Source: Sphingomonas rhizophila
GTDB lineage: Bacteria > Pseudomonadota > Alphaproteobacteria > Sphingomonadales > Sphingomonadaceae
Direction: 5' to 3'
Length of the DNA: 64,000 nucleotides
Assembly: GCF_014396585.1 (NCBI RefSeq)
Contig: NZ_CP060717.1
Location: 2,294,001-2,358,000 of the forward strand
Shown: positions 1 to 12,239 of the stretch, piece after piece
How positions within the stretch are numbered: the stretch's first letter is position 1
How the letters are laid out: each line of letters opens with the position of its first letter
Notes under the pieces: generated by a model
Databases searched by the model: none
Told to the model about the DNA's origin: nothing
The model's input: only the letters and a program-made list of their open reading frames with translations
Translations under genes and position numbers: made by a program

Positions 1-1549
1 AGGACAGCGGACTGCAGCAGATCAGTCATCCCGCAGCCACATAGGGCGCGACGAGGACTCGGCCTTCTTCGGGCTGATGGGTGTAGAGTAGTCGCCCGTC
101 TGCGGTGACAACCTTGCGAATGGCATAAGGGGTGATGCTAACCCCGCCGTTGCTGACCGATGCGAACGCCTTCGTCATATCCAGAAGGCGAACCTCGCTG
201 CTGCCGAGGACCATCGACGGGTAGGTCGAAATGGGGCTGGAAATGCCAAAGCGGCGCGCCATGTCGGCGATGGTGCCGAACCCGACTTGGGCGCCGATTT
301 GCGCGCTGATGGTGTTGATCGAGCGGGAGAAGGCCTCACGCATCGACACCGGCCCGGCATAGGTTCTGGTCGAATTGCGTGGGGTCCAGCCGTCGACCGT
401 GAACGGCTTGTCCTCCAGCATGTCGGTCGGCTTCATTCCCGATTCGAGCGCGGCGAGATAGACGAACAGCTTCCACGACGATCCCGGTTGTCGCTGCGCT
501 TGGGTCGCGCGGTTGTAGATCGACGTGACATAGTCGCGCCCCCCGACCATTGCCCTGACAGCGCCATCGCGGTCGATCGACACCAGTGCGCCCTGCGCCA
601 TCCGCGGCGCATTGGCGTTGATGGCGCGGTCGGCCGCGGCCTGCATCCCGGGGTCGAGCGTCGTCCATACGTCGATCGGATCGCTGGTCTCGTCGATCAG
701 CATGTCGAGTTGCGGAAGCGCCCAGTCGGTGAAGTAGCGGACGCTGTTCTGCTTGGCCGGGACCTGCACCCGGATGGTGGCCGCATCGACCGACGCGGCG
801 GCGTCGCGACTGATGAAGCCATTGTCGGCCATCGATTTCAACACGACCCCAGCGCGGCCGCGCGCTGCCTCGACGTCGGCGGTCGGCGAATAGTTCGATG
901 GCGCCTTGACCAGCCCGGCGATGATCGCTGCCTCGCCAAGGCTGAGGTGGTCCGCGCCATGCCCGAAGAAGGTGTTGCTGGCGGCATCGATGCCATAGGC
1001 GCCACCGCCGAAGTAAACGCGGTTGAGGTAGAGCTCGAGGATTTGGTTCTTCGAGAATTTGCGCTCGATCGCCAGGGCCAGAATCGCCTCGCGGATCTTG
1101 CGTCCGAAGGTGCGGCTGTTGGTGAGGAAGATGTTGCGCGCCAGCTGCTGCGTGATGGTCGATCCGCCCTGCCGCCAGCGGCCCTGTTCCAGGCGCACCT
1201 TGAACGAACGGGCCACGCCGATCGGATCGACGCCGATGTGGCTGCGGAAACGCTTGTCCTCGACGGAAATCATCGCGCTTCGCATCGTCGCGGGGATTTC
1301 TTCGTAGCGGAGCCAGCGGCCGAAGCTCGGGCCCAGTGCGACTAGGATGGTGCCGTCGGCGGCGCGAACCCGGATGCGCTGGCCAAGGTCGGTGCGCTTC
1401 TGGAGTTGCGAATATTCCGGCAACGAGGCCATCGCCACGGCAACGGAGATGCCAAGGACGATGAGGCCAAGCGCAGCGAGGGCGAGCCCCCAGCGAATGG
1501 CCTTGCCGAAGAAGCCGCGGCCGGCGGAGGGCGTGGGGGAACGAGCCAT
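1..1549 (-). CDS. Penicillin-binding protein 1A-type bifunctional transglycosylase/transpeptidase, 3' end outside window, one frameshift
   Basis: Class A penicillin-binding protein that polymerises and cross-links peptidoglycan at the outer face of the inner membrane. A short cytoplasmic N-terminus precedes a membrane anchor at about residues 18-40. The GT51 glycosyltransferase domain follows, with EDKRFRSHIGVD holding the catalytic Glu and the signature GGSTITQQLARN. The transpeptidase domain shows the SxxK motif as SSWK and the SxN motif as SIN; the KTG motif would lie beyond base 1. ATG at 1549 is preferred to the TTG one codon upstream. The reading frame stops at 26-28, but one extra C in the CCC run at 30-32 would continue it as GMTDLLQSAV to the window edge, the normal continuation of the family. 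The break is therefore probably a sequencing indel. Confidence 0.9.
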
Positions 1550-1598
1550 CAAGGCCTGAGGGTTATTCGTTCATCTGCCAGCCGACAAGGGGCGCGGC

Positions 1599-2024
1599 TC
1601 AACGCTGGTCGTTGTCCTTAGCCGCTTCGTCGTCCTGCCTGGCGTCGAACGCCAGCGAGGCGGAGTTGATGCAATAGCGGAGGCCGTCAGGTCCCGGGCC
1701 GTCCGGGAAGACGTGGCCCAAGTGTCCCTCGCACCTCGCGCAGCGCACTTCGGTGCGTTCCATGCCGTGGCTGTGGTCCTGCTTTTCCTCGACCGCGGCC
1801 TCGCTCGCCGGCGCGGTGAAGCTTGGCCAGCCCGAACCGCTGTCATATTTGGTGGCACTGTCGAACAGGTCCGCGCCGCATGCCGCGCAGCGATAGCGGC
1901 CCTTTTCCTTGTTGTGGAGCAGGGCGCCGCTGCCGGGCGGCTCGGTGCCGGCCTGCCGCAGGATTCGAAACTGTTCGGGGGTCAGCCGCGCCTGCCATTC
2001 GGCGTCGCTGCGCTTGTCGGCCAT
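1599..2024 (-). CDS. msrB: Peptide-methionine (R)-S-oxide reductase
   Basis: Repairs oxidised methionine by reducing methionine-R-sulfoxide in proteins with thioredoxin as electron donor. The protein of about 141 residues has the full MsrB fold: two zinc-binding CxxC pairs (CAAC and CARC), the GSGWPSF segment, [10 protein letters not shown], and the catalytic Cys in RYCINSASL, so it is a cysteine rather than a selenocysteine enzyme. ATG at 2024 is chosen because a good Shine-Dalgarno sequence (GGAGGAG) lies just upstream; a longer frame upstream of it lacks one. There is no signal peptide, so it is cytoplasmic. It diverges from the DUF4402-like gene at 2104 across an 80-base gap. Confidence 0.95.
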
Positions 2025-2053
2025 ACGCTCCTCCTTCAAGACAATGCCAAGGG

Positions 2054-2070
2054 TGAAAACCGCGTTAACC
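2054..2070 (+). promoter_or_regulatory. CtrA-box-like element 1 upstream of first DUF4402-like gene
   Basis: TGAA, seven bases, then TTAACC. It matches the CtrA consensus TTAA-N7-TTAAC with one mismatch in the left half. It is the first of four similar elements, one before each of the first four genes of the surface-protein locus. Binding is inferred only. Confidence 0.4.
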
Positions 2071-2103
2071 CTGTTTTCACGCCTGCCCAATACCCCTTAC
2101 GCC

Positions 2104-2634
2104 ATGGTCGGCCGTCTTCGCGCCCTGATGCCGTTACTCGCGCTCTGCGCGAGCGGTCTGGTCGTGCCTGCCGCCGCAGCGGCGCAGTGCCGCCTGTGCT
2201 CGACGCCGACCACGACGCCGGATTCGGCGGGCTCCTCGGACAAGCCGATTCGGCTGGAAGTGGTGTCGACCATCGACTTCGATCGCCTGATCCTTACTGG
2301 TCCGGGCTTCGGAAGCGCCCTGCTCCGGCCGGACGGTACGACCGCAGCGACTGGCGCCGTCGCCCCGCTTGGCGCCCGGTCGGTCGCCGGGGAAATCTCG
2401 ATTCGCGGCGAACCGGGACGGGCCATCCGCGTCGACCTCCCGCGGTCGATCGAACTCTACGGTCTCAGGGGCGGCACGATCCGGATCGAATCGATTCAGA
2501 GTGATCTGCCCGACTTCCCCGAACTCGATTCTGCCGGCACGCTGAAGATCCGAATCGGAGGGGAGCTTCGGGTCAGCGGCGAGTTCGACGGCGATTTTCG
2601 CGGCGATATTCCGGTGCTGGTCGACTACCTCTGA
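2104..2634 (+). CDS. Secreted DUF4402-like protein
   Basis: A 176-residue exported protein of unknown function. Residues 1-25 form a Sec signal peptide ending in a run of alanines (PAAAAAQC). The mature part begins with a Cys-x-x-Cys pair and then alternates short beta-type segments. It ends in SGEFDGDFRGDIPVLVDYL, a degenerate version of the C-terminal GTFTxxADYQ tail of the two DUF4402 proteins downstream, which is the main reason for the family call. ATG at 2104 places the signal peptide correctly, though no strong ribosome binding site precedes it. It is the first gene of the locus that continues with two more DUF4402 genes, a chaperone and an usher-like protein, so a structural or accessory subunit role is inferred. 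Confidence 0.75.
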   Translation: MVGRLRALMPLLALCASGLVVPAAAAAQCRLCSTPTTTPDSAGSSDKPIRLEVVSTIDFDRLILTGPGFGSALLRPDGTTAATGAVAPLGARSVAGEISIRGEPGRAIRVDLPRSIELYGLRGGTIRIESIQSDLPDFPELDSAGTLKIRIGGELRVSGEFDGDFRGDIPVLVDYL

Positions 2635-2671
2635 GGTCTTCCACGCGGCTCCACAGGGTCAACCGCGAAAG

Positions 2672-2690
2672 TGAATCATCCGGTAACCAT
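2672..2690 (+). promoter_or_regulatory. CtrA-box-like element 2
   Basis: TGAA, seven bases, then GTAACCAT, about 110 bases before the second DUF4402 gene. It has two mismatches to TTAA-N7-TTAAC but shares the TAACCAT core with elements 3 and 4. Confidence 0.35.
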
Positions 2691-2799
2691 AAGCCTGAGC
2701 AAAGCCGTAAGCCGTTGCGGTTAATGCCACGGTACGGATGACGGGCCGACCGGTTCGACAGCCGAATAGTTTTGGGAACCTGTGGGGAATTTTTTGACC

Positions 2800-3387
2800 A
2801 TGACCAACTTTTTCAACAAGGCCGCACTGGCCGCGACCGTCGCCGCTTCGGCCCTGGCCGCGACGCCGGCGCTTGCTGCTCCGGTAAGCGCCGACGGCAC
2901 CGCGACGGTGAAGATCTATTCGCCGCTGACGATCGAAGCGCCCACCGCCACTGACGCGGTCGTCGATTTCGGCATCCTCGTCGGCACGTTCGGCACCCGT
3001 GCCTCGCATGACTTCATCATCGATGCCTCGGCCGCACCGACCCCCGCCGACGTCTGCGGCGCGGCGACGACCTGGAACTGCAGCGGCACGCCGCACCGCG
3101 CCCGGTACGACATCACCGGTTCGGTCGATTCGAGCGTCAACGTCTCGTTCGCCGCCGACACGATCGACCTCGTCCGCGTCGGTGGCAGTGCGGGCGTCCC
3201 GGCCGACGTCGTCCCGCTCCAGCTGACTCTGTCGGACACCACCGATTCGAACGGTGACGGCACGGCCGACGTCCTTCTCGCCGGCGGCGCCGCGACGGTT
3301 TTTGTCGGCGGTACCCTGGGTGTCGACGCCGCGAACGTTGACGGTGTCTACAGCGGCACCTTCACGATCAGCGCCGACTACCAGTAA
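2800..3387 (+). CDS. Secreted DUF4402 family protein
   Basis: A 195-residue exported beta-rich protein of the DUF4402 family. The signal peptide is clear (KAALAATVAASALAATPALA, cleavage before APVSADG). The mature chain starts with ATVKIYSPLTIEAP and ends in the family tail YSGTFTISADYQ, which may act like the terminal strand of a pilin subunit. Two cysteines (VCGAATTWNC) could form a disulfide. The start is taken at ATG 2800, about 10 bases after GGGGA; an in-frame GTG at 2782 would only lengthen the leader. The gene is followed by a strong Rho-independent terminator, so it can be expressed at its own level, as is common for major subunits. Function is not known. Confidence 0.85.
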   Translation: MTNFFNKAALAATVAASALAATPALAAPVSADGTATVKIYSPLTIEAPTATDAVVDFGILVGTFGTRASHDFIIDASAAPTPADVCGAATTWNCSGTPHRARYDITGSVDSSVNVSFAADTIDLVRVGGSAGVPADVVPLQLTLSDTTDSNGDGTADVLLAGGAATVFVGGTLGVDAANVDGVYSGTFTISADYQ

Positions 3388-3427
3388 GTCGGACCCCACA
3401 TAGCGCCGCCCTCAGCGGCGCGGTTCG

Positions 3428-3465
3428 AAGGGCGGGAAGCTTAATGTTTCCCGCCCTTTCTTTTT
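3428..3465 (+). terminator. Rho-independent terminator after second DUF4402 gene
   Basis: An 11-bp perfect stem AAGGGCGGGAA / TTCCCGCCCTT with a 9-base loop, followed by TCTTTTT. Confidence 0.9.
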
Positions 3466-3481
3466 GCCCGCGTCGCAAAAG

Positions 3482-3500
3482 TTAAATGTCCGCTAACCAT
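3482..3500 (+). promoter_or_regulatory. CtrA-box-like element 3
   Basis: TTAA, seven bases, then CTAACCAT, 90 bases before the third DUF4402 gene. It has a single mismatch to TTAA-N7-TTAAC and is the best of the four copies. Confidence 0.45.
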
Positions 3501-3589
3501 GTCTCCGAAGCGGATGGAAAGGATCTTAGGGTTAACAGCGCGGTGACCTTGTTCGCGAACCACGCGCGGACAGGACGGGAGATTGAACC

Positions 3590-4153
3590 GTGAAAAATTC
3601 CATCCGCCTGCTCGCCTCGATCGCCGCCGTTTCGGTCACGATGGCCTTGCCGGTTGCCGCCAAGGCCGCGACCGCCAACGCGACGGTCAATGCCAAGATC
3701 GTCAAGCCGCTGGTGCTGACCGGTGGCGGCACGATAGCCATCGGTACGCTGATCACGCCGAGCACCGCGACCTTCAGCAACACCTTCACCATCCAGCCCG
3801 CCGCGACTCAGACCGGCACCTACTGCCAGACGGGGTTCACCTGCTCGGGGACGCCGACGGCGGCCATGTTCAACCTCCAGGGCACGAACAACACGCCGCT
3901 CAACCTCACGATCCCGCTGACCGTGACACTGACAAATACCAGCTGGACCGGGGGCGGCGCGGCGCCGACGTTGACGATGACGACCAGCAATAGCCTAGCC
4001 GCCAACAACGCCAGCGGCGTTTATGTAACCCAGCTTCCAAACTCGGGTTTCCCGGGTACCAACTACTATGTGGGAGGTTCGTTGACGATCACTCAGGCGA
4101 CGGAAGCAGGTAGCTATTCCGGCACCTTTACGGTGACCGCCGACTACCAATAA
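3590..4153 (+). CDS. Secreted DUF4402 family protein
   Basis: A 187-residue exported DUF4402 protein. The start is GTG at 3590, supported by GGGAG about 9 bases upstream and by the signal peptide that follows at once (KNSIRLLASIAAVSVTMALPVAAKA). The mature N-terminus ATANATVNAKIVKPLVL and the C-terminus YSGTFTVTADYQ are typical of the family, and a Cys pair (YCQTGFTC) may form a disulfide. The chain is rich in Thr, Asn and Gly with little charge, like many fimbrial or surface-layer subunits. It has its own upstream element and its own terminator, as does its neighbour. It is probably a subunit of the same structure; no biochemical function is known to me. Confidence 0.85.
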   Translation: MKNSIRLLASIAAVSVTMALPVAAKAATANATVNAKIVKPLVLTGGGTIAIGTLITPSTATFSNTFTIQPAATQTGTYCQTGFTCSGTPTAAMFNLQGTNNTPLNLTIPLTVTLTNTSWTGGGAAPTLTMTTSNSLAANNASGVYVTQLPNSGFPGTNYYVGGSLTITQATEAGSYSGTFTVTADYQ

Positions 4154-4180
4154 GCCCGGTCATTCAGCTCGACCGGCAAG

Positions 4181-4216
4181 GGGGCGGTTGGCATGTGCCG
4201 GCCGCCCCACTTTTTT
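4181..4216 (+). terminator. Rho-independent terminator after third DUF4402 gene
   Basis: GGGGCGGTTGGC pairs with GCCGGCCGCCCC (two G-U pairs) around a 4-base loop, followed by AC and six T residues. Confidence 0.85.
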
Positions 4217-4235
4217 GCTGATCTCGCGGCGATGG

Positions 4236-4254
4236 TTAGCCGGTTGATAACCAT
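4236..4254 (+). promoter_or_regulatory. CtrA-box-like element 4 / TAACCAT inverted repeat
   Basis: TTAG, seven bases, then ATAACCAT, 55 bases before the chaperone gene. The same stretch is also a perfect inverted repeat, ATGGTTA-N9-TAACCAT at 4232-4254, so it could bind a dimeric regulator. Confidence 0.4.
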
Positions 4255-4308
4255 TTTGGACCAACATTCCTTCAAAGCCGCCCGGTCGGCGGCGCCCTGG
4301 AGAATGTC

Positions 4309-5130
4309 ATGTCCTTTTCGCCTTTCGTTCGTGCCCTGGCGCTCGGCGCCGTCACCATTGCGACCGCGACGTCTCAACCGGCGCGCGCCGGTGTCGGCGA
4401 CCTGCTGGTCGCGCCGACGCGCATCATCCTGAACGGCGGCCGAGGAACGGAAATCATCCTGAAGAACATCGGCGACGCTACCGCGACTTATCGCGTGTCC
4501 GCCGAACTTCGCCGGATGACTCCCGAAGGAGTGCTGGTCGAGGTCACGAATCCCAGCGCCGACGAAAAGGCGGCGCAGGACATGGTGGTGTTCGCGCCCC
4601 GCAAGGTCACCCTGCCACCCAACAGCCCGCAGGCCGTCCGGGTTTCGGCGCGCGCGCCGCAAGGCCTGCCCGACGGGGAGTACCGTATCCACTTGCTGTT
4701 CCGTGCCATTCCGGATCCGACGCCGGTGACGGCGCCGACCCAGGCGTCGGGCCTCGCCTTCAAGCTGATCCCGGTCTACGGCGTCACCATTCCCGTCATC
4801 GTTCGCCTCGGCAGCCTCGAGGCCAAGGCAGGAATCGCCGACGTCCAGTTCGAGCAGGACAAGGGCAGGAAGCTCGTCACGCTACAGTTGACCCGCAACG
4901 GTACCCGCTCGACCTATGGCGAAGTCCGGGTGATCAAGCCGGGCGTCAAGGATCCGGTTGCGGTTCTGAAGGGCGTCGCGGTCTATAAGGAATTGTCGAC
5001 CCGCAAGGTCTCGGTCCCGGTGTCCGCCGACTACAAGGGGCCGATCGCCGGTCCGGTCACGGTGCAATATTATGAAGTGACCGACAACGGCGCGACTCTC
5101 GCCGCCGAAACCAGCGCGACGCTCCGCTAG
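4309..5130 (+). CDS. PapD-like periplasmic (fimbrial-type) chaperone
   Basis: A 273-residue exported protein resembling the immunoglobulin-like chaperones that hold pilus subunits in the periplasm. After a signal peptide (about residues 1-27, ending QPARAG) the sequence reads LLVAPTRIILNGGRGTEIILKNIG, the typical first strands of a PapD domain, and later VTLPPNSPQAVRVSAR, matching the conserved G1-strand region. GEYRIHLLFRAIP and VYGVTIPVIVRLG also fit. It is longer than classical PapD proteins (about 230 residues) and ends in an extra beta domain. It lies 155 bases after the third DUF4402 gene and 23 bases before the usher-like gene, with which it is probably co-transcribed. Its clients are most likely the DUF4402 proteins. 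Confidence 0.85.
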   Translation: MSFSPFVRALALGAVTIATATSQPARAGVGDLLVAPTRIILNGGRGTEIILKNIGDATATYRVSAELRRMTPEGVLVEVTNPSADEKAAQDMVVFAPRKVTLPPNSPQAVRVSARAPQGLPDGEYRIHLLFRAIPDPTPVTAPTQASGLAFKLIPVYGVTIPVIVRLGSLEAKAGIADVQFEQDKGRKLVTLQLTRNGTRSTYGEVRVIKPGVKDPVAVLKGVAVYKELSTRKVSVPVSADYKGPIAGPVTVQYYEVTDNGATLAAETSATLR

Positions 5131-5153
5131 GACGGACGCGCGGGGGCGATCCG

Positions 5154-7876
5154 ATGCAGTTCTGGCGGCGCGCATGGGGCAAGGCCCTGGCCGTGCTGGC
5201 GTTGGCCAGCGTCGGGGCCGGCTTGCCTGCCTCCTCGCCGGTCAACGACGGCTGGACCGCCGATCCGGAAGAACAATATCTGCTCGACGTGTCGATCCGC
5301 CACCTGTCGCTGGGGGATGGCGTCCGCGCCTACGCGACCCCGCAGGGCACCTGCGTCGTGTTCGGCGACTTCCTCACCGCTCTCGACGTGCCGATGAAGA
5401 TCGACCTCCAATCGCACAAAGCCAGCGGCTGGGCATTCCGCCAGGACAACAGCATCAGCATCGACACCGCGACGAGAACGGCCGAAATCAAAGGCAAACG
5501 CGAAGCATTTGCAACAACCGACGTTCGCGAGGTCCCGGAAGGGTGGTGCGTCTCGACCGAAGCGCTGGCACGCTGGTTCTCGATTGGAGTCCGACCGGAC
5601 CGTTCGGTGTCGATGCTGGTTCTCGAAGCGAAGGACAAGCTGCCCGTCGAACTCGCGATGGAGCGCCGCAATCGCGCCGCAAGTCTGAAGCGGACGGCGG
5701 CGGTCGACCTTTCCGGCATACCCCATGTCCGGCTTCCCTATCGCATGTGGCGTGCCCCGGCGTTGGAGTTCATCGTCAATGCCGGCGTCACTTATCGCGC
5801 CCATGGCGGGGCCAAAGTCGACCGGTCCGCCTCGGTCTATGCCGCGGGCGAAGTCGCCGCGATGAGCTATACCGCCGCCATCCAGAGCGACTTGGCGGGC
5901 TTGCCCACGTCGGTCCGCGCCACCCTGTTCCGGTCTGACCCCGATGCAGGCCTGCTCGGCCCCTTGCAAGCGACCCATGCGGCAGTTGGCGATGTCGAGG
6001 GACTCGCCTCCGCTTTCGGCGGGGGCAGCGGGACCGGTCGCGGCGCGGTCCTCACCAACCGCCCGCTGACCCACCCGGGAACGTTCGACCGAACGGAATT
6101 CACCGGCGAGCTCCAGCCCGGTTGGGATGCTGAACTCTATCGCAACGGTGCATTGCTCGGCTTCGATGACGGATCGTCCAGCGACGGCCGCTATCATTTT
6201 CGCGATGTCGAGATGCTCTATGGCGACAACGAGTTCGAGATCGTCCTCTACGGCCCGCAAGGCCAGGTGCTTCGGCGGCACGAAGCGGTCAACGTCGGCC
6301 GCGACAATGTGCCGCCAGGCAAACTCTGGTACTGGGCCGGTGTTCGCCAGCCCGGACTCGACCTGATCGATTTCCAGAAAAAGGAAGATCCGCCGCCCGG
6401 CACGGCGGCGGCTGTTTCCAACAAGGCGCCGGAACTTAGCCTCGACGTCCAGTATGGCGTCGACGATCGCACGTCTGTCGGGGCGCTGATCCGCTCGTCC
6501 ATGATTCAGGACGAGCGGGTGACTTTCCTTGAAGGCTCGGTTCGAAGGTCGCTGGGAAGCGCGCTGGTCGAAGTCGGCGGAGCGCTCGACACGAATGGCC
6601 GCCTCGCCGCTCGCGCTCAGGTCGCGACCAAGGTGGGCGCCGTGAACATCAACGCCGCATCCTTCTACACCAATGGCTTTGGCGCCGCTCGATTGGGGAC
6701 GGGCACGGAGAAAGCCTTGCGAAGCGAGCACCGGCTCGGCGTGTCGGCCCCGGTCAAGCTTGGCGCCGTGGCGATCCCGATCGGCGCCGACGTCAGGCTA
6801 CTCAACCGCATCGATGGCACCAGCGCGCTCGATGCCAGCACCCGTCTCGGCGCCCAGATCGGTCGATTCAACCTGTCGACCGAAACTCATTACCAGCGCG
6901 AGTTGAAAGCCGTGGCCGCAGATGGCGACATTGCACGCGAACGGCTGGACACGATGCTGATCGGAACCGCCCGGATCGGCCGGGTGCGCCTGCGCGGTAC
7001 CTCGCGATGGGACATCAAGCCCGAAGCGCGCTTCCGCAACGCCGAGATCACCGCCAACTGGTCAGCCGGCGATCGCGCTGATTGGGAAGCGGGAGTCGCG
7101 TACGAGGCTGACCTCAGCAGGGTGCGCGGACGGGTAAGCCACGTCCGCCGGTTCGACCTGATGAACGTCGCGCTGACCGGCGAGGTCGCCAGCGACCGTT
7201 CGGTCGCCGCGGGGATCAGCCTCAGCTTCTCGATGGACCCGTTCCGCGGCAATTTCCGGCCAACCAGCGACAAGCTGGCCAGCACCGGGGCGGTACGCGC
7301 CCGCGTCTTCGAGGACCTCAATGAAAATGGCGTCCGTGACGACGGCGAGCCGGTCGCGGTCAAGGCGATGATAACCACCGGCACCCGCCCGATCGACCGA
7401 TCGACCGATTCGAAGGGCGAACTCACGGTCGGTGGGCTGCCGCCCTTCGTTCCGGTCGCCATCGGCATTGACCAGACCAGCCTGGACAACCCTGCGCTGA
7501 CACCGGCGAAACCCGCCCAACTGATCGTTCCGCGCCCGGGCGTTCCTGCGACGGTCGATATCGCGCTGGTCGGGGCGGATCGATCGAAGGCATCGCGGTT
7601 CACGAGGATCATCGCGAGTATGAGGGGCTGGACATCGAGCTGCTCGATGAAGCCGGCCAGGTGATCGCGATAACCCGCTCCGACCTCGACGGCTATTTCC
7701 TATTCGAACGCGTCAAATACGGCCGCTACACCCTGCGCCTTGCTGCTGCCACGGCCGAAGCGATCAATGCACCGCGCGACCTAGCCACCAGAGCAATCGT
7801 CGGGCGCGATCGCCCCGTCGTTAGGCTTGGCATGGTGAAGGTCATCCCGGCGCCACGCCTGGCATCGGCCCAGTAG
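5154..7876 (+). CDS. Usher-like outer membrane protein with C-terminal carboxypeptidase-regulatory-like domain, one frameshift
   Basis: A large exported protein of about 907 residues once repaired. A signal peptide (residues 1-25) is followed by an N-terminal domain with two Cys (GTCVVF, GWCVS). An usher-type middle region has FTGELQPGWDAELYRNG and NEFEIVLYGPQGQVLRR. A long beta-barrel-like stretch follows, then a Ca-binding-like repeat (FEDLNENGVRDDGEPV) and a C-terminal domain (GLDIELLDEAGQV to YTLRLA) like those of carboxypeptidase regulatory domains. The frame breaks at the GGGG at 7572-7575; one added G joins IALVG to GSIEGIAVHEDH and the frame then runs to 7876. It presumably exports or assembles the DUF4402 subunits delivered by the neighbouring chaperone. 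Classical FimD landmarks are weak, so usher is a family-level inference. Confidence 0.8.
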
Positions 7877-7941
7877 CAAAAGTCGTCTCGCACGACGTTT
7901 CGGGTTTCGGGCCACGCCCGACTGGGCGCTTCGGCAAAAAG

Positions 7942-8028
7942 TGGTGCGGTCGAGAAGACTCGAACTTCCACGGCCTTTCGGCCACAACGACCTCAACGTT
8001 GCGCGTCTACCAGTTCCGCCACGACCGC
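7942..8028 (-). tRNA. tRNA-Leu(GAG)
   Basis: Reading the minus strand, a 7-bp acceptor stem GCGGTCG / CGACCGC ends in an encoded CCA. The D arm is GGCGGAACTGGTAGACGC. The anticodon stem CAACG / CGTTG holds loop TTGAGGT with anticodon GAG (7992-7994). A long variable arm (GGCCGAAAGGCC) marks a class II tRNA, and the T loop is TTCGAGT. All parts agree with tRNA-Leu. Confidence 0.95.
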
Positions 8029-8186
8029 ACTCGTGAAATAGCCGCGGACAAGCTGCCCACGGCTCTGGCAAGGCGCGGCCTCTAGCAAAGCGATATCGCC
8101 TGCGCAACGGGCGAAAACCTGTCCATCCTCGGGACAGTGGTAAATGGGTCGTTTACCTTCTCGCCGCACCGTGCGTAGTCGGACGC

Positions 8187-8411
8187 ATGGGCGCCCTTTC
8201 GCTCCTGCTGCTTTCAACTGCCGCGGCAACGTCGGCGCCGTCACCGCGCCCCGCGGTCACCGCACACGGCACTGCCGCTGTGACCATCGTCACGCCCGCC
8301 CTGATCGGGGCTGCCTACGGCCCGCCGGCCGCAATGATGACGGCGCGCGATGCAACGGTCGCGCTTCCCGGTGGTGGAAGCACGGTCATCCGCCTCTACG
8401 AATTCGAATGA
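8187..8411 (+). CDS. Small secreted hypothetical protein
   Basis: A 74-residue open frame with a likely signal peptide (GALSLLLLSTAAATSAPS) and a short mature part ending TVIRLYEFE. There is no recognised family. Support comes from the signal-peptide-like start and from its stop codon, which abuts exactly the stop of the convergent zinc-ribbon gene (TGA then TCA), a tight arrangement typical of real genes. There is no obvious ribosome binding site. It could still be a chance frame in GC-rich DNA. Confidence 0.45.
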   Translation: MGALSLLLLSTAAATSAPSPRPAVTAHGTAAVTIVTPALIGAAYGPPAAMMTARDATVALPGGGSTVIRLYEFE

Positions 8412-9314
8412 TCAGCTCTTCGCGCCGCCCAGCGTAACGGTCAGTTCGTCGCCGCCCTCGGGAATGTCGACTTCGGCGCTGTTGAAATTGGCGCTGCCCC
8501 GCGGCGGGAGCGACGCGGCCGGCGGGGCGATGGTCCACTCATAGACCAGCTTCCGGGTCGCCTTGTTGCGCAGCGAGGCGCGGATCGGCGGTACCGTCTG
8601 GGTTTCGTCGGTCGGATTGATGACCCGACCACTGATCGCCAGCAGTTCGTTGCCGCTCGCCAGCTTCTGGCGGTCGCTGGTCGTCAGCATCACCTCCAGC
8701 GGCGTCGTTCCGGCGCCCGCCATCCCGACACGAGATTTCAGCTCGGCCGGCGCCAGGAACCAGAAGGCAGCCACGGCAGCGGCGACCAGCAGCAGGACGA
8801 CCACGGCCGTTCGCAATCCGCGGCCTGTCCGCTCTTCCTCGAACTGCGGGATGGCGAAGTCCTCGGCGTCCTCGCTCGTCGATAGCGGCTCGTAGGCGGG
8901 CTCGTAGGACTGTTCGACCGGAACGGCAGCGACCGGGTCGCTTTCGGTGTCGACCTGCTCATACAGACGCTGGTCCGGCTCCACGGCCGGTTCGCGATAA
9001 TCAGCGACACCCTGGTCGCCAGCCACCTCCGCAGGGAGATCGGCGACCGGCGGCTCGTCCGGTAGGTCGGGATTGCTTTGCGGCGGGCCGCCCAACTCCT
9101 CGTCGACGGGCGGCGCATCGACATGGAATTGTCCGGCGTTCCCTTCAGGGGCCGGCGTCATGACGTCACGTTCCGCCGGCTGCGCCATTTCGTCGGGACC
9201 GGGCTCGTGCCAGCTGTGCTTGCACGATGCGCAACGGACCTGTCGCCCGCCCGGTGGGATCGCCCCGTCCTTGACCACATATTTGGTGTCACACTCGGGA
9301 CAGGTCAGGATCAT
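8412..9314 (-). CDS. MJ0042-type zinc-ribbon membrane protein (DUF3426-like)
   Basis: A 300-residue protein with an N-terminal zinc ribbon: CPECDTKYVV and VRCASCKHSW give two CxxC pairs at about residues 5-8 and 28-31. A long acidic, Pro- and Glu-rich linker follows (residues 38-165). A single membrane helix (AVVVLLLVAAAVAAFWFLA, about 170-190) leads to a periplasmic domain with ISGRVINPTDETQTVPPIRASL, the hallmark of DUF3426 proteins. Zinc-ribbon proteins of this kind sit beside ftsEX in many alphaproteobacteria, and here it diverges from ftsE across 115 bases. The function is unknown; a link to the cell envelope or division is inferred from context. Confidence 0.85.
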   Translation of the reverse strand: MILTCPECDTKYVVKDGAIPPGGRQVRCASCKHSWHEPGPDEMAQPAERDVMTPAPEGNAGQFHVDAPPVDEELGGPPQSNPDLPDEPPVADLPAEVAGDQGVADYREPAVEPDQRLYEQVDTESDPVAAVPVEQSYEPAYEPLSTSEDAEDFAIPQFEEERTGRGLRTAVVVLLLVAAAVAAFWFLAPAELKSRVGMAGAGTTPLEVMLTTSDRQKLASGNELLAISGRVINPTDETQTVPPIRASLRNKATRKLVYEWTIAPPAASLPPRGSANFNSAEVDIPEGGDELTVTLGGAKS

Positions 9315-9429
9315 GGGCTTCGAATATCCTCCCGAGGGGCGTTAATGCGGGTAAACAGCAACGCGCCCGCCTTGGCAAGGCAGCGCACGCTGTGCGACAG
9401 CTTGGGCAGGACAAGCGGGAGCGTAGGCG

Positions 9430-10151
9430 CTGGAAACGATCGTCGAGTTCGACCGGGTGGGGTTGCGTTACGGTACGGGAGGGGAGGTGCTTCGCGACCT
9501 CGACTTCCGGCTGGCCAAGGGCGGATTCTATTTTCTGACCGGCGCGTCGGGTGCGGGCAAGACGTCCCTCCTGAAGCTGCTTTATCTGGCTCAGCGCCCG
9601 TCGAGAGGCCGCATCCGGCTATTCGGCGAGGAAATGTCCGACGCCCCGCGTGAGGAGATGCCCGCTCACCGCCGCCGCATCGGGGTGGTTTTCCAGGACT
9701 TCCGGCTGGTCAAGCATCTGTCGGCGTTCGACAACGTCGCGCTGCCCCTGCGCGTCGCGGGCCGAAGCGAGGCCGAACTCGAAGGGCCGGTTCGTGAAAT
9801 GCTCGCGTGGGTCGGTCTCGCCGACCGCGCCAGCGCCCGTCCTCCGACCCTGTCGGGGGTGAGCAGCAGCGCGTGGCGATTGCCCGCGCGGTCATCGGCC
9901 AGCCCGACATTCTCGTCGCGGACGAGCCCACGGGCAACGTCGATGCGGCCATGGCGCAACGGATCCTCAGCCTCCTGACCGGTCTCAATCGCCTCGGAAC
10001 GACCGTCATCGTCGCTACCCACGACCTCGGTCTCATCACCGCGACCCCGGGCGCGCAGCTTATCCGGCTAGAGAACGGCAACCTTGTCGATCCGACCGGG
10101 GCCTTGCGTAACCCGCCGGTCGCACGCCAATTCCGGGATGTCGCGTCATGA
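9430..10151 (+). CDS. ftsE: Cell division ATP-binding protein FtsE, one frameshift
   Basis: ATPase of the FtsEX complex, which couples the divisome to peptidoglycan hydrolase activation at the septum. Visible motifs are Walker [14 protein letters not shown]-loop FQDFRL, ABC signature [14 protein letters not shown], Walker [13 protein letters not shown] and the switch His in VATHDLG. The signature is split: the frame is lost at GGGGG 9855-9859, and adding one G restores LSGGEQQR. The start is uncertain. An in-frame TAG lies at 9424, and the first strand [11 protein letters not shown] needs a start at or before 9442, leaving CTG at 9430 as the best choice; the GTG at 9457 would delete the first strand. 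GGGAG lies about 10 bases before the CTG. The stop overlaps the ftsX start (ATGA). Confidence 0.9.
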
Positions 10152-11026
10152 TCGAGCGGTTGCTCGGTACGCCATACGAGCGGCGCCTGCTCGGCGGTGG
10201 TCGCTTCTCCGGGCCGACCGCCTGGCTGATTGCGATCATGATGTTCGTGATGCTCAGCGTCGCAGCCGCGGGCCTGGCCCTTGCCGGCAGTGCCCGGCTG
10301 GTCAGCGAGGGTGTCGCTCGTCGTCACATGGCGCAGATCACCGACGGCCGTTCGACCGGGGCTGCCGCGGTTGCGGCACTCCGCGCCGCCCCTGGCGTCG
10401 TCAGTGTGACGCCGGTGCCGGAAGCGGAGTTGCGCCGGACGCTGGAACGCTGGCTTGGCCCGTCCGCGCGCGATCCGGACGCCGCGCTGCCAATACCGGT
10501 CCTGATCGATGTCGAACTCGCGCCCGGTGCCGCGGTGCAGCCGGTCGCTGCCGCCTTGAAGCGCGCCGTGCCGCAGGCCGAACTCATCAGCAACAGCGGT
10601 CGGCTCGGCCCGATGCTTCGCGCCGTCAATTCACTGGCCTGGCTGTCGGCGGCGATCGTCGCGCTGGTCGCCCTGGCAACGGCCTCGGCGGTCGTGCTGG
10701 CGACGCGCAGCGCGCTCGCCGCGCATCGCGCCACGATCGAGGTCATGCACGGGATTGGCGCCACCGATGAACAGATCACGCGGCTGTTCCAGAGAAAGAT
10801 CGCGGTTGACGCGCTCGCCGGCGGCCTTGCCGGCGCCCTTGCGGCGGGGATTGCCCTGCTGCTGATTTCGGCGGGCAGCCTTGCCAGCGCCGGGGAATGG
10901 ACCGGCGGGCGGTTGCTCGGCACGCTCGACCTGACCCTGCTCGCGTTGCTGCCGTTTATCGGCGCGGCGCTGGCGACCGTGGTGGCGCGGCGAACCATTC
11001 TCCATTCGCTTCGGGCCAGCCTGTGA
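10148..11026 (+). CDS. ftsX: Cell division protein FtsX
   Basis: Membrane subunit of the FtsEX complex, 292 residues. Transmembrane segment 1 is at about residues 25-50 ([23 protein letters not shown] region). It is followed by a periplasmic loop of about 110 residues that would contact envelope hydrolase activators, then three C-terminal membrane segments. The cytoplasmic turn [23 protein letters not shown] is the conserved FtsX coupling region. The start overlaps the ftsE stop by four bases, so the pair is translationally coupled. The stop overlaps the GTG start of the next gene in the same way, making ftsE-ftsX-ydcF-like-plsC one tightly packed operon. Confidence 0.93.
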
Positions 11027-11559
11027 TCGCCCGCGCCGCCGCCTTCCTGCTGCTGCTCTACGGACTCGGCTTCGCCTTGTTCAGCGTAACGCTCGCCGCG
11101 CCGGCGGAGGCGGACGCACCCAAGACGCAGGCGATTGTCGTTATTACCGGTGGGCCGGGCCGGATCGAGCGCGGCATAGAACTCATGGCCAAGGGAAAGG
11201 CAAAGCGCATGTTGATCGCCGGCGCCGACCCGTCGGTGACCAAGGACGACCTCGTCCGCCGCATCGGTGGCAAGCGCAAGCTGTTCCGCTGCTGCGTCGA
11301 TCTTGGCTCGGAGTCAGTCGATACGCGGTCGAACGCGGAAGAGGCCCGCCGCTGGCTCACCAAGCACGGCTACACATCGCTTCGGCTGGTCACCAGCGAC
11401 TGGCACATGCGCCGCGCCGAATATGAATTCCGGCATGCGCTGGACAAAAAAATCGTCATCGTCCCGGACGCCGTCCGGACGGAGCCCGGGCTGATGACCC
11501 TTTTCGCCGAGTATAACAAATACCTGCTTCGGCGGCTCAGCGTGGGTCTGGATATCTGA
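11023..11559 (+). CDS. YdcF-like (DUF218) membrane-anchored protein
   Basis: A 178-residue protein of the DUF218/YdcF family. It begins with an uncleaved or signal helix (AAAFLLLLYGLGFALFSVTLAA) followed by a domain with AIVVITGGPGRIERGIELMA, RMLIAGADP, VDTRSNAEEARRWL and LRLVTSDWHMRRAEYEF. These match the nucleotide-like binding fold of the family (TGG, TxxNA and SxxHMRRA motifs). The GTG start at 11023 overlaps the ftsX stop, and the stop overlaps the plsC start, so it is co-transcribed with both. Some family members act in envelope polysaccharide metabolism; the exact role here is unknown. Confidence 0.85.
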   Translation: MIARAAAFLLLLYGLGFALFSVTLAAPAEADAPKTQAIVVITGGPGRIERGIELMAKGKAKRMLIAGADPSVTKDDLVRRIGGKRKLFRCCVDLGSESVDTRSNAEEARRWLTKHGYTSLRLVTSDWHMRRAEYEFRHALDKKIVIVPDAVRTEPGLMTLFAEYNKYLLRRLSVGLDI

Positions 11560-12239
11560 TGGCGGTTCTTCGCTCGCTCCTGTTCGCATTGATCTTCTAT
11601 CCGGGGACACTGCTGTTCGTGCTGGCGATCATGGCGGCCACCCCTTTCGGTGACGCCCCGGTCCGGCGCCTCGTTCACGGCTGGGCGCTGTTCCACTATT
11701 GGCTGGTTCGGAAAATCCTTGCGATCCGCTTTGAATGGGACGGAGAAATCCCGCCCGGCCCGTTCCTGATCGCCGCCAAGCACGAAGCGATGGTCGAAGC
11801 GGTCGACACGCTCCGCTTCGCCCGGCTGCCGGTCGTGGTGATGAAGCGCGAACTGTCGGAAATGCCGCTGTGGGGCCGCGCGGCGCGGCAGTATGGGGTG
11901 ATTGGCGTCGATCGGGACGCCGGCGCCAAGGCGCTGCGGGAGATGATGGGACAGGCGCGGGCCGCCGCGGCGCAGGGCCGGCCGGTGATCATCTTCCCGG
12001 AAGGCACCCGCGTTCCCACCGGCACCGCGCCCCCGCTTCGCCCGGGGTTCGCCGGCCTCTACCGAGCGCTCGGGCTTCCGGTGGTGCCGGTCGCGCTGGA
12101 CAGCGGCCGGGTCTGGCCCCGGGGATTCGTGAAGAAAAGTGGCGTCATCCGCTTCAAGGTGGGCGAACCGATACCGGCAGGCCTGAAGCGCGAAGACATC
12201 GAACGACGCGTCCACGCCGCGATCAACGCCCTGAACTAG
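11559..12239 (+). CDS. plsC: 1-acyl-sn-glycerol-3-phosphate acyltransferase
   Basis: Membrane acyltransferase that makes phosphatidic acid from lysophosphatidic acid. The 226-residue protein has an N-terminal membrane helix (FALIFYPGTLLFVLAIMAA) and the PlsC catalytic core. AAKHEAMVEAVD stands for the HxxxxD/E motif, here with Glu as in many alphaproteobacterial members; GVIGVDRDAGAKALREM follows, and VIIFPEGTRVPTG is motif III. ATG at 11559 overlaps the stop of the preceding gene. Coupling with ftsEX suggests coordination of septation with membrane synthesis, an inference from gene order. Confidence 0.9.
   Translation: MAVLRSLLFALIFYPGTLLFVLAIMAATPFGDAPVRRLVHGWALFHYWLVRKILAIRFEWDGEIPPGPFLIAAKHEAMVEAVDTLRFARLPVVVMKRELSEMPLWGRAARQYGVIGVDRDAGAKALREMMGQARAAAAQGRPVIIFPEGTRVPTGTAPPLRPGFAGLYRALGLPVVPVALDSGRVWPRGFVKKSGVIRFKVGEPIPAGLKREDIERRVHAAINALN

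Follow-up and report, generated by a model that had tools for sequence, protein, structure and literature searches.

We asked if a cluster of five genes, in which three secreted DUF4402 proteins precede a PapD-like chaperone and a large protein with usher-type motifs, encodes a chaperone-usher surface fibre, as a preliminary description of this DNA had proposed. The cluster occupies positions 2104-7876 of the window (the whole stretch of 64,000 nucleotides that was analysed) and belongs to a relative of Sphingomonas edaphi; all of its genes are on the + strand and have a high third-position GC (0.73-0.85). Judged from its sequences and predicted structures, the cluster is very probably an operon for a chaperone-usher fibre, on a deep branch that lies beyond current usher models.

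Table 1. Features of the DUF4402 cluster (positions in the window)
Feature	Position	Strand	Details
DUF4402 subunit 1	2104..2634	+	PF14352 60.4 bits; signal peptide followed by CRLC
DUF4402 subunit 2	2782..3387	+	PF14352 48.4 bits; start GTG 2782 or ATG 2800; ends GTFTISADYQ
Intrinsic-terminator-like hairpin with T run, 3' of subunit 2	3427..3459	+	14-pair stem; -27.5 kcal/mol, z -5.3
DUF4402 subunit 3	3590..4153	+	PF14352 55.2 bits; GTG start; ends GTFTVTADYQ
Intrinsic-terminator-like hairpin with T run, gap between subunit 3 and chaperone	4181..4208	+	
PapD-superfamily periplasmic chaperone	4309..5130	+	PapD_N sub-threshold; hhalign to sigma-type chaperones
Usher main frame: N-terminal domain, plug, barrel, first C-terminal domain	5154..7579	+	profile match 8-798 of 898
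Usher remainder, out of frame: second C-terminal domain, CarboxypepD_reg-like	7580..7876	+	profile match 797-895

The usher gene and its predicted product

The large open reading frame (5154-7664, 836 aa) runs off-frame to 7664, and the match to the usher profile passes into the next frame near 7580; the protein of 907 residues described earlier is obtained only by reading across this frameshift. The interruption could mean that the operon has decayed and is non-functional in this genome, which we consider highly unlikely. The usher was open over 887-1313 aa in the 40 relatives of alignment A1, and ftsE, about 2 kb off, was likewise divided between two frames (the first matching the ABC_tran profile at 1-111, the second at 111-136), which together with the completeness score of 93.95% for this single-contig assembly suggests uncorrected indels; the frameshift is probably such an assembly error. 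Neither Pfam nor NCBIfam recognised the protein as an usher: PF00577 (Usher) gave no match over its cut-off, three of 40 members reached E≤1 (0.02 at best), the DUF4402-type usher of this genome had no PF00577 match at E≤10, and neither TcfC nor CooC_C was among the 25 Pfam families listed, out of 29, for DUF4402 ushers. The C-terminal domains scored as SdrD_B/CarboxypepD_reg-like (CarboxypepD_reg on the remainder 23.6 bits, below the cut-off), and the NCBI names for plasmid relatives are "carboxypeptidase regulatory-like", "SdrD B-like" or "hypothetical".

The fold was assessed with an AF2 model of an intact relative (S. edaphi relative; 65-row alignment; pLDDT 85.1, pTM 0.68). FimD or PapC filled the top 18 Foldseek rows against the PDB (E 5.4e-28 to 5.1e-14) and the top 15 VIA entries (Z 17.1-19.7; first other barrel 14.5), in agreement with the usher-like fold that had been named as a point on which the proposal would stand or fall. 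By our reading of the DSSP assignment, the model has 6 barrel strands, 6 plug strands, 18 further barrel strands and two C-terminal domains, i.e., a 24-strand barrel with a plug between strands 6 and 7; PMC4356140 gives a matching plan of barrel, plug and C-terminal domains for PapC. The C-terminal domains, previously called extra, are located where FimD/PapC carry CTD1/CTD2 and hence are not additions. The N-terminal domain was modelled confidently at about 42-160, and was barely covered by the VIA alignments, which run mainly over 192-890.

Profile-profile comparison of the usher to sigma-type ushers gave 98.7% (E 1.6e-16, 631 columns). The profile of the DUF4402 usher group matched sigma ushers at E 4.9e-26 and FimD-like ushers at E 4.8e-20, and hhalign to five alpha ushers gave E 8.4e-7. 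Homology to FimD, suggested earlier as a check, was thus found with the FimD-like group profile and not with FimD as a single sequence: profiles run against single FimD, FimC, FimA, EcpC, EcpB and EcpA sequences yielded probabilities below 7%, and sequence profile searches of the PDB returned no usher, chaperone-usher chaperone or pilin. Profile homology and predicted structure together show the third gene type to encode an usher.

The cluster might simply belong to a clade already described (sigma/archaic, alpha/alternative or an unsampled one) and look distant because PF00577 is narrow. The nearest usher profile being that of sigma, the standard domain plan and the carboxylate anchor of the chaperone (see below), common to archaic and alternative chaperones, are consistent with this reading, which we regard as unlikely. 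Sigma and FimD-like profiles matched each other at E 1.1e-44, closer than either to the DUF4402 ushers, and in a tree with nine sigma, five alpha and five FimD-like ushers (beta, kappa and pi not deliberately sampled) the DUF4402 ushers formed one clade (100/100) outside all three groups (each 100/100), grouping neither with the sigma ushers nor with the EcpC-type alpha ushers, while sigma and FimD-like ushers were joined at 96/92.

Chaperone and DUF4402 subunits

The presence of a PapD-like chaperone, as described earlier, was borne out: PapD_N scored 16.8 bits (cut-off 23 bits) and matched 10 of 41 members at E≤0.1, and hhalign to sigma-type chaperones gave 97.6% (E 4.4e-12, 203 columns). 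Pro97, Arg126 and Tyr226 were invariant in all 41 aligned chaperones and stand opposite Pro59, Arg89 and Tyr196 of CsuC. Pro97 is the superfamily-invariant proline of PapD-type two-domain chaperones, and Arg89 and Tyr196 are the residues by which CsuC binds the subunit C-terminus, so that the non-classical carboxylate anchor appears to be kept; the Arg/Tyr anchor is also given for EcpB in PMC4654587. The invariant Arg38 faces the first-strand arginine of FimC (read through two alignments), and Pro162 stands opposite the classical G1-strand lysine. These sequence comparisons show the second gene type to be a chaperone-usher chaperone; its pairing of a classical-type first-strand arginine with a non-classical Arg/Tyr anchor offers a fresh comparison for how subunits are held.

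The three secreted DUF4402 proteins of the preliminary description all exceeded the Pfam cut-off (25.2 bits), and DUF4402 was the only Pfam family matched in them at E≤1, with no SCPU match. The C-terminus GTFT(I/V)(S/T)ADYQ, thought to be shared by all three, is found in subunits 2 and 3 and not in subunit 1, which ends GDIPVLVDYL. A penultimate Tyr is a mark of pilins. The earlier statement that the subunits carry no classical pilin signature was too strong, 172 of the 177 DUF4402 proteins examined (a set in which some genomes appear twice) having a Tyr at one of their three final positions.

The AF2 model of subunit 3 (pLDDT 87.4) had pilins as its best PDB matches. In Foldseek the seven lowest E values all belonged to Caf1 or CsuE, with a best E of 4.8e-3 and no row reaching E≤0.001, and chaperone-usher subunits made up 45 of the 50 VIA entries listed, at Z up to 7.9, a level that according to the tool can be attained by models without a clear match. 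A pilin-type Ig fold is thus predicted for the DUF4402 proteins at middling structural scores. As the best Foldseek match, Caf1, polymerizes into a capsule-like coat, it may be that DUF4402 proteins are exported through an usher-like pore as a thin coat of this kind, or as single surface proteins, with no rod-like pilus. We consider this quite unlikely, as alternating N-terminal extensions, a subunit type that lacks one and, at three divergent loci, proteins of two domains of which the C-terminal one is DUF4402 would be in keeping with a tipped, ordered polymer.

The N-terminal alternating strand was seen in subunits without CxLC, which scored a mean of 9.72 of 11 (7.8 for shuffled sequences, n=127); CxLC subunits were also slightly above their shuffles (8.79 vs 7.98, n=24). 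Subunit 2 scored 9 (7.9 shuffled), subunit 3 was outside the scored set, and no alternating N-terminal extension was seen in subunit 1 (8 vs 7.6 shuffled). CxLC occurs near the N-terminus of a subunit in 21 of 80 other loci (selected by that motif). A CxLC subunit without an evident donor extension would take the tip position, and subunit 1 is likely the tip (acceptor-only) subunit that we propose. Subunit 3 is probably the major pilin, since its gene adjoins that of the chaperone. The C-terminal beta strand had been suggested as donor, and this is not expected because in the known pathway the next subunit donates the strand through its N-terminal extension (PMC8410936); by analogy, the donor strand here should be the N-terminal extension. 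Residues 1-41 were without strand by DSSP in the single-chain model, so donor-strand pairing was unseen there.

Distribution and proposed assembly

Chaperone and DUF4402 genes adjoined the usher in 40/40 family loci taken with flanks and in 76/80 loci of a second collection; in the four exceptions either the contig ended at the usher or it was shorter than 4 kb. In the family sample of 149 genomes (56 with an usher match), usher and DUF4402 were both present in 55, both absent in 90 and discordant in 4, so that the gene types co-occur across genomes (145/149 agree) as well as neighbourhoods, as had been predicted. That the DUF4402 proteins are unrelated passengers beside a chaperone-usher pair, a thought prompted by orphan DUF4402 genes elsewhere in these genomes that lack a chaperone or usher, is scarcely credible against this agreement, the constant neighbourhood and the pilin-like predicted fold. 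The link of usher with DUF4402 is looser outside the family: DUF4402 and chaperone were near the usher in 12 of 16 loci read at class level, and in the phylum sample DUF4402 was found in 10/13 genomes with a long usher match, with 4 genomes having a DUF4402 match (1 over the cut-off) without an usher. PF00577 ushers occurred in 28/149 genomes and SCPU subunits in 23/149 (this genome had no SCPU match), and the DUF4402-type usher was also present in 8 of the former and 5 of the latter. The PF00577 ushers listed in family genomes stand at other places than the DUF4402 loci, which with this coexistence also argues against membership of a described clade.

Usher fold, separate clade and co-occurrence support a distinct, apparently undescribed chaperone-usher branch with DUF4402 subunits. 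The idea of a distinct alphaproteobacterial branch holds as to distinctness and fails as to Alphaproteobacteria only, with related systems on beta- and gammaproteobacterial replicons. In the assembly that we envisage, subunits would reach the periplasm via Sec, where the chaperone G1 strand would complete the subunit Ig fold and Arg126 and Tyr226 would anchor its C-terminus in the archaic/alternative manner. The usher N-terminal domain would receive the complex, the next subunit would displace the chaperone strand with its N-terminal extension, and the fibre would grow through the plugged barrel. A terminator-like hairpin was present in the gap between subunit and chaperone genes in 58/76 loci (0.1 expected); partial termination there, after the subunit gene(s), could provide subunits in large excess over chaperone and usher. 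Such a fibre would most likely serve to adhere to surfaces or to build biofilms.

Ushers were gathered by Pfam profile in at least one survey (PMC5717340). The Pfam usher profile misses the DUF4402 branch almost completely, so that a common fibre system would be missing from such counts, and the system is currently annotated as something else. DUF4402 gains a testable function, and a candidate adhesion organelle emerges for sphingomonads of soil and freshwater.

Comparison with known chaperone-usher systems

It is slightly more likely than not that the cluster represents a fourth chaperone-usher pathway beside the classical, alternative and archaic ones. It would be marked by DUF4402 pilins, a chaperone with an Arg/Tyr anchor and a classical-type first-strand arginine, SdrD_B/carboxypeptidase-regulatory-like usher C-terminal domains, a dedicated CxLC tip, additional subunits that an orphan locus provides in trans, a stoichiometry-setting hairpin, and carriage by plasmids or secondary replicons in the Alpha-, Beta- and Gammaproteobacteria, those of the first two classes being conjugative.

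The archaic (sigma) systems, e.g., Csu of Acinetobacter baumannii, resemble the DUF4402 system in usher and chaperone (homologous by profile) and in the matched CsuC residues, and the best structural matches of the DUF4402 subunit include CsuA/B and CsuE. They differ in having SCPU subunits, an usher of a separate clade and chaperones without the Arg38 counterpart; CsuC Arg174 has no aligned invariant residue in the DUF4402-locus chaperone. The structural matches of the subunit also include CfaE and CfaB from the alternative (alpha, class 5/ECP; CfaABCE, EcpABCDE) pathway, whereas the alpha ushers are on a long branch of their own. The classical FimCD and PapCD systems provide the top structural matches of the usher (FimD and PapC) and share its domain plan and the first-strand arginine of the chaperone; they differ in their usher C-terminal domains, in the carboxylate anchor and in the G1-strand lysine replaced here by Pro162, and the helix that PapC has between barrel strands 13 and 14 is absent from the DUF4402 usher model.

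Operon layout and the interrupted usher frame

By fold, homology and gene neighbourhood the operon in the window is a chaperone-usher system, known here from genes and models. The three secreted DUF4402 proteins, the chaperone and the large outer-membrane protein of the preliminary description were all confirmed, on the forward strand, within 2104-7876. The 907 residues assigned there to the large protein fit the base count of 5154-7876, and no single frame gives that length; the ORF stops at 7664 after 836 codons with its final part off-frame, and the usher profile runs from positions 8-798 in one frame to 797-895 in the next, switching near 7580. A genuine frameshift of the gene was considered and rejected, since the usher reading frame is open in 40/40 relatives (887-1313 residues) and ftsE, about 2 kb downstream, is split likewise. 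With these two points and an assembly completeness score of 93.95% (one contig, 2.56 Mb), an assembly error is the likely cause; the two interrupted genes suggest uncorrected indels in this single-contig assembly. Rfam gave no match at gathering level over 1-12000 of the window, and the PHROGs search none at E≤0.01.

Features of the operon and its surroundings (window positions)
Feature	Position	Strand	Remarks
Penicillin-binding/transglycosylase-like ORF	26-1552		upstream of operon; assigned by eye
SelR-domain (msrB-like) gene	1599-2090	-	upstream of DUF4402 operon
DUF4402 subunit 1	2104-2634	+	signal peptide, DUF4402 domain
DUF4402 subunit 2	2782-3387	+	signal peptide, DUF4402 domain
Terminator-like hairpin after subunit 2	3427-3459		-27.5 kcal/mol, z -5.3
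DUF4402 subunit 3	3590-4153	+	signal peptide, DUF4402 domain
Terminator-like hairpin after subunit 3	4181-4208		-30.8 kcal/mol, z -4.8
Chaperone	4309-5130	+	PapD_N below cut-off
Large outer-membrane protein (usher)	starts 5154; whole stretch to 7876	+	
tRNA-Leu (gag)	7942-8028	-	directly 3' of usher
ftsE	9457-10151		interrupted; one frame matches ABC_tran profile positions 1-111, a second 111-136

No terminator-like hairpin was found after subunit 1. Of 76 loci in relatives, which are related to one another and hence not independent, 58 have a hairpin plus T run behind the last subunit gene, where dinucleotide shuffling predicts 0.1; behind earlier subunit genes such a hairpin was seen in 6/30. 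Partial termination at the hairpin would let the subunits outnumber the chaperone and usher.

Conservation, spread and naming of the operon

A profile search of 149 family genomes located 60 DUF4402-type usher places in 56 of them, and 40 of these places, besides the window's own, were fetched with their flanks. The three gene types of the preliminary description proved to be conserved neighbours: all 40 family loci have a chaperone gene immediately 5' of the usher in the same orientation, together with one or more adjacent DUF4402 genes, the latter upstream and co-directional in 38, divergent in one (L072) and downstream only in another (L067). A scan of genome contigs gave at least 501 relatives, of which 80 were kept; the order DUF4402, chaperone, usher was seen in 76/80, while the four exceptions have the usher at the edge of its contig or on one shorter than 4 kb. 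DUF4402 occurs in 58/149 family genomes, so that 55 carry both it and the usher, one the usher only, three DUF4402 only and 90 neither, the two underlying searches having been run at different limits (E 1e-10 and 1e-3); among the DUF4402-only genomes, the match in G137 is weak (6e-4) and G022 is 67% complete. Archaic (sigma-type) SCPU subunits were found in 23/149 and PF00577 ushers in 28/149 of the same genomes, and none of the PF00577 places listed coincides with a DUF4402-type usher place.

Beyond the family, the usher profile matched 17/240 genomes of the class sample; DUF4402 and chaperone genes lie near the usher in 12 of 16 class loci (in L180 and L184 on the other strand), L189 holds only a 93-aa DUF4402 fragment, and neither gene was recognised in L186, L190 and L192. 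Two of these loci, L189 and L190, start close to the edge of their contig. In the phylum sample 13/398 genomes, the window's own and six family members included and two short C-terminal matches (G491, G631) excluded, had an usher match over at least 500 positions. DUF4402 is present in 10 of these 13; a DUF4402 match without the usher was seen in four genomes, in one of them over the cut-off.

Usher relatives also lie on seven plasmid records, one from Sphingopyxis and two each from Novosphingobium, Polaromonas and Pseudoalteromonas. Four of the records are typed conjugative, and both Pseudoalteromonas replicons (about 0.9 Mb) are typed non-mobilizable. The usher operons of Polaromonas sp. JS666 plasmid 2 (L208) and the Polaromonas sp. 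E5S plasmid (L221) stand beside IS6-family transposase genes; the JS666 operon has one such gene at either end, as in a composite mobile unit. A Sphingomonas daechungensis plasmid (L216) carries TcfC-like and CS1-pili (CooC_C-like) usher pieces with a chaperone, of alpha type.

None of the ushers in six annotated neighbourhoods is named as one; four are called 'carboxypeptidase (regulatory-like)', one 'SdrD B-like' and one 'hypothetical'. The upstream gene is named DUF4402 in five of the six and 'hypothetical' in L209. In the open-licence literature we found no paper that mentions DUF4402 or PF14352 and none on Sphingomonadales usher fimbriae or 'carboxypeptidase regulatory-like' ushers; judged by titles and the beginnings of abstracts, no open-licence paper on chaperone-usher systems and Sphingomonas treats this system.

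The DUF4402 subunits

For subunit 3, an AlphaFold model (67 rows, pLDDT 87.4) was compared with known structures. The seven lowest-E rows from Foldseek were Caf1 and CsuE, the best at 4.8e-3 and none reaching 0.001; with VIA, chaperone-usher subunits made up 45 of the 50 entries listed (CsuA/B cryo-EM Z 7.9, PapG pilin domain 7.8, CfaE 7.7), the remaining five being glycosidases (four entries) and one archaeal cannula fibre. These scores from a predicted model are middling, yet they agree with one another.

The preliminary description proposed the C-terminal beta strand as the one serving in donor-strand exchange. This we rejected from the known pathway, in which, according to an excerpt of PMC8410936, the donor is an N-terminal extension. 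A Tyr lies within the last three residues of 172/177 DUF4402 proteins, a set that counts some proteins twice because the two locus collections share genomes (e.g. L035, L077). Ahead of the first conserved strand the subunits other than the CxLC type (the type of window subunit 1) have an alternating segment such as ATATATAKARI. Their mean best alternation was 9.72 of 11 vs 7.8 for shuffled segments (127 scored; 86/127 at 10 or more), and that of the CxLC subunits 8.79 vs 7.98 (24 scored; 5/24 at 10 or more), with the segment too long in two CxLC rows printed; 26/177 proteins, window subunit 3 among them, have no anchor motif and were left unscored. The CxLC subunit is present in 21/80 loci of the genome-contig collection, and its CxLC invariance in alignment A6 holds by construction because the CxLC rows there were chosen by that motif. 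A subunit that accepts a strand and donates none would take the tip place, and the CxLC subunit would therefore sit at the tip of the predicted fibre.

Three divergent loci (L067:5655-6701, L068:9649-10677 and L073:9586-10587) encode secreted proteins of 334-349 residues in which DUF4402 is C-terminal only; their N-terminal part is unclassified, and they adjoin divergent ushers. CfaE is a two-domain tip adhesin of the same layout, and these proteins are candidate tip adhesins.

Eight orphan loci (L234-L241) hold one or two DUF4402 genes each away from the operon, with no chaperone or usher recognised within 9-10 kb; the window's own genome has one at G000:C1:2238483-2239031 (L241, reverse strand), about 55 kb from the window start. 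Several lie beside genes judged by eye to be nadB-like (L-aspartate oxidase) or have in common another conserved neighbour, whose protein starts ...PRxFLYRDG. DUF4402 being almost restricted to family genomes that carry the usher, the orphan proteins may be subunits supplied in trans.

Usher and chaperone compared with known systems

Sequence models hardly recognise the usher. No usher family of Pfam or NCBIfam was returned by hmmscan for the window protein or, at E≤0.01, for five relatives; PF00577 matched 3/40 members at E≤1 (best E 0.02) and nothing in the window's own genome even at E≤10. When PDB sequences were searched with phmmer and with profiles, only SdrD-type tail matches or chance hits came back, and comparison of profiles with individual E. 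coli K-12 sequences gave no significant match. The usher-type character proposed for this protein was nonetheless borne out by predicted structure. For an AlphaFold model of the S. edaphi protein (65-row alignment, pLDDT 85.1, pTM 0.68), the first 18 Foldseek rows against PDB were FimD/PapC only (E 5.4e-28 to 5.1e-14), followed by SdrD at 9.7e-12 and other barrels from about 5e-7; the first 15 VIA-align entries were likewise FimD/PapC (Z 17.1-19.7), the next barrel scoring 14.5. Entry 9fw9 gave Z 19.7 and rmsd 10.1 over 556 residues, and 3ohn Z 19.4 and rmsd 5.3 over 386; the N-terminal domain is barely tested by these alignments because they span mainly residues 192-890.

Our reading of the DSSP assignment for the model gives an N-terminal domain (42-160), 6 barrel strands (199-300), 6 plug strands (312-379), 18 barrel strands (389-687) and two C-terminal domains (704-888). 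PapC, as described in excerpts of PMC4356140 and PMC8410936, has 24 barrel strands, a plug in the loop joining strands 6 and 7, and three further domains, one N-terminal and two C-terminal. It differs in having a helix after strand 13 and before strand 14, where our model lists none. SdrD_B and CarboxypepD_reg match 39/40 and 38/40 usher members, respectively (E≤1), and, where located, fall in the C-terminal domains. The preliminary description called these domains extra; their reading as additions to an usher was rejected, as they occupy the CTD1/CTD2 place and align with the FimD CTD region (VIA-align). Three ushers (L069, L070, L072) have 1285-1313 residues, some 380 more than most, and that of G145, a genome of the same genus group as the window's, is identical to the L077 usher.

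Profile-profile comparison of the ushers with PF00577-positive family ushers, whose genomes all carry SCPU subunits, gave 98.7% with E 1.6e-16 over 631 columns. Group profiles placed the DUF4402-type ushers at E 4.9e-26 from sigma (archaic), 4.8e-20 from FimD-like (classical) and 8.4e-7 from alpha (alternative) ushers; for scale, FimD-like-sigma gave 1.1e-44, alpha-FimD-like 4.4e-6 and alpha-sigma 1.8e-7. Group sizes are unequal, and these sigma-alignment comparisons carry one noise row because L199, a wrong-frame ORF, is within alignment A7 (the sigma usher set) and the sigma profile, as it is in the first tree. Two of the 12 PF00577 loci (L203, L205) had no ORF listed and were unused.

In a maximum-likelihood tree of 44 rows, 25 DUF4402-type ushers form one clade at 100/100, as do alpha (5), FimD-like (5) and sigma (9) ushers, with FimD-like and sigma joined at 96/92; the alignment is hard and the stems are long (DUF4402 clade 1.1, alpha 2.1). 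This tree omits L199 and eight DUF4402-type ushers that are long-branched, partial or near-copies (L187, L186, L190, L192, L209, L191, L181, L182); the first tree, which keeps the eight, gave the DUF4402 clade an SH-aLRT of 91 and set the faulty row L199 next to it. Six usher clades are known (excerpt of PMC3559732); the sampling here was aimed at alpha, FimD-like and sigma ushers, and not at beta, kappa or pi. Judged by sequence, the DUF4402-type ushers are their own branch among those sampled. The idea of a distinct chaperone-usher branch with DUF4402 subunits is supported, with a separate 100/100 usher clade and pilins as the best subunit matches.

PapD_N scored 16.8 bits on the window chaperone and was found in 10/41 chaperone members at E≤0.1. 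Against eleven sigma-type chaperones, the chaperone profile gave 97.6% with E 4.4e-12 over 203 columns covering both domains. Via the sigma alignment, Pro59, Arg89 and Tyr196 of CsuC stand opposite Pro97, Arg126 and Tyr226 of the window chaperone, which are invariant in 41/41; Arg174 of CsuC, a secondary residue, differs in having no invariant partner aligned. By our reading of the alignments, invariant Arg38 aligns with the arginine in the first strand of FimC (R8 of PapD; excerpt of PMC4133393), which the sigma chaperones do not have; the classical G1 lysine has Pro162 opposite it.
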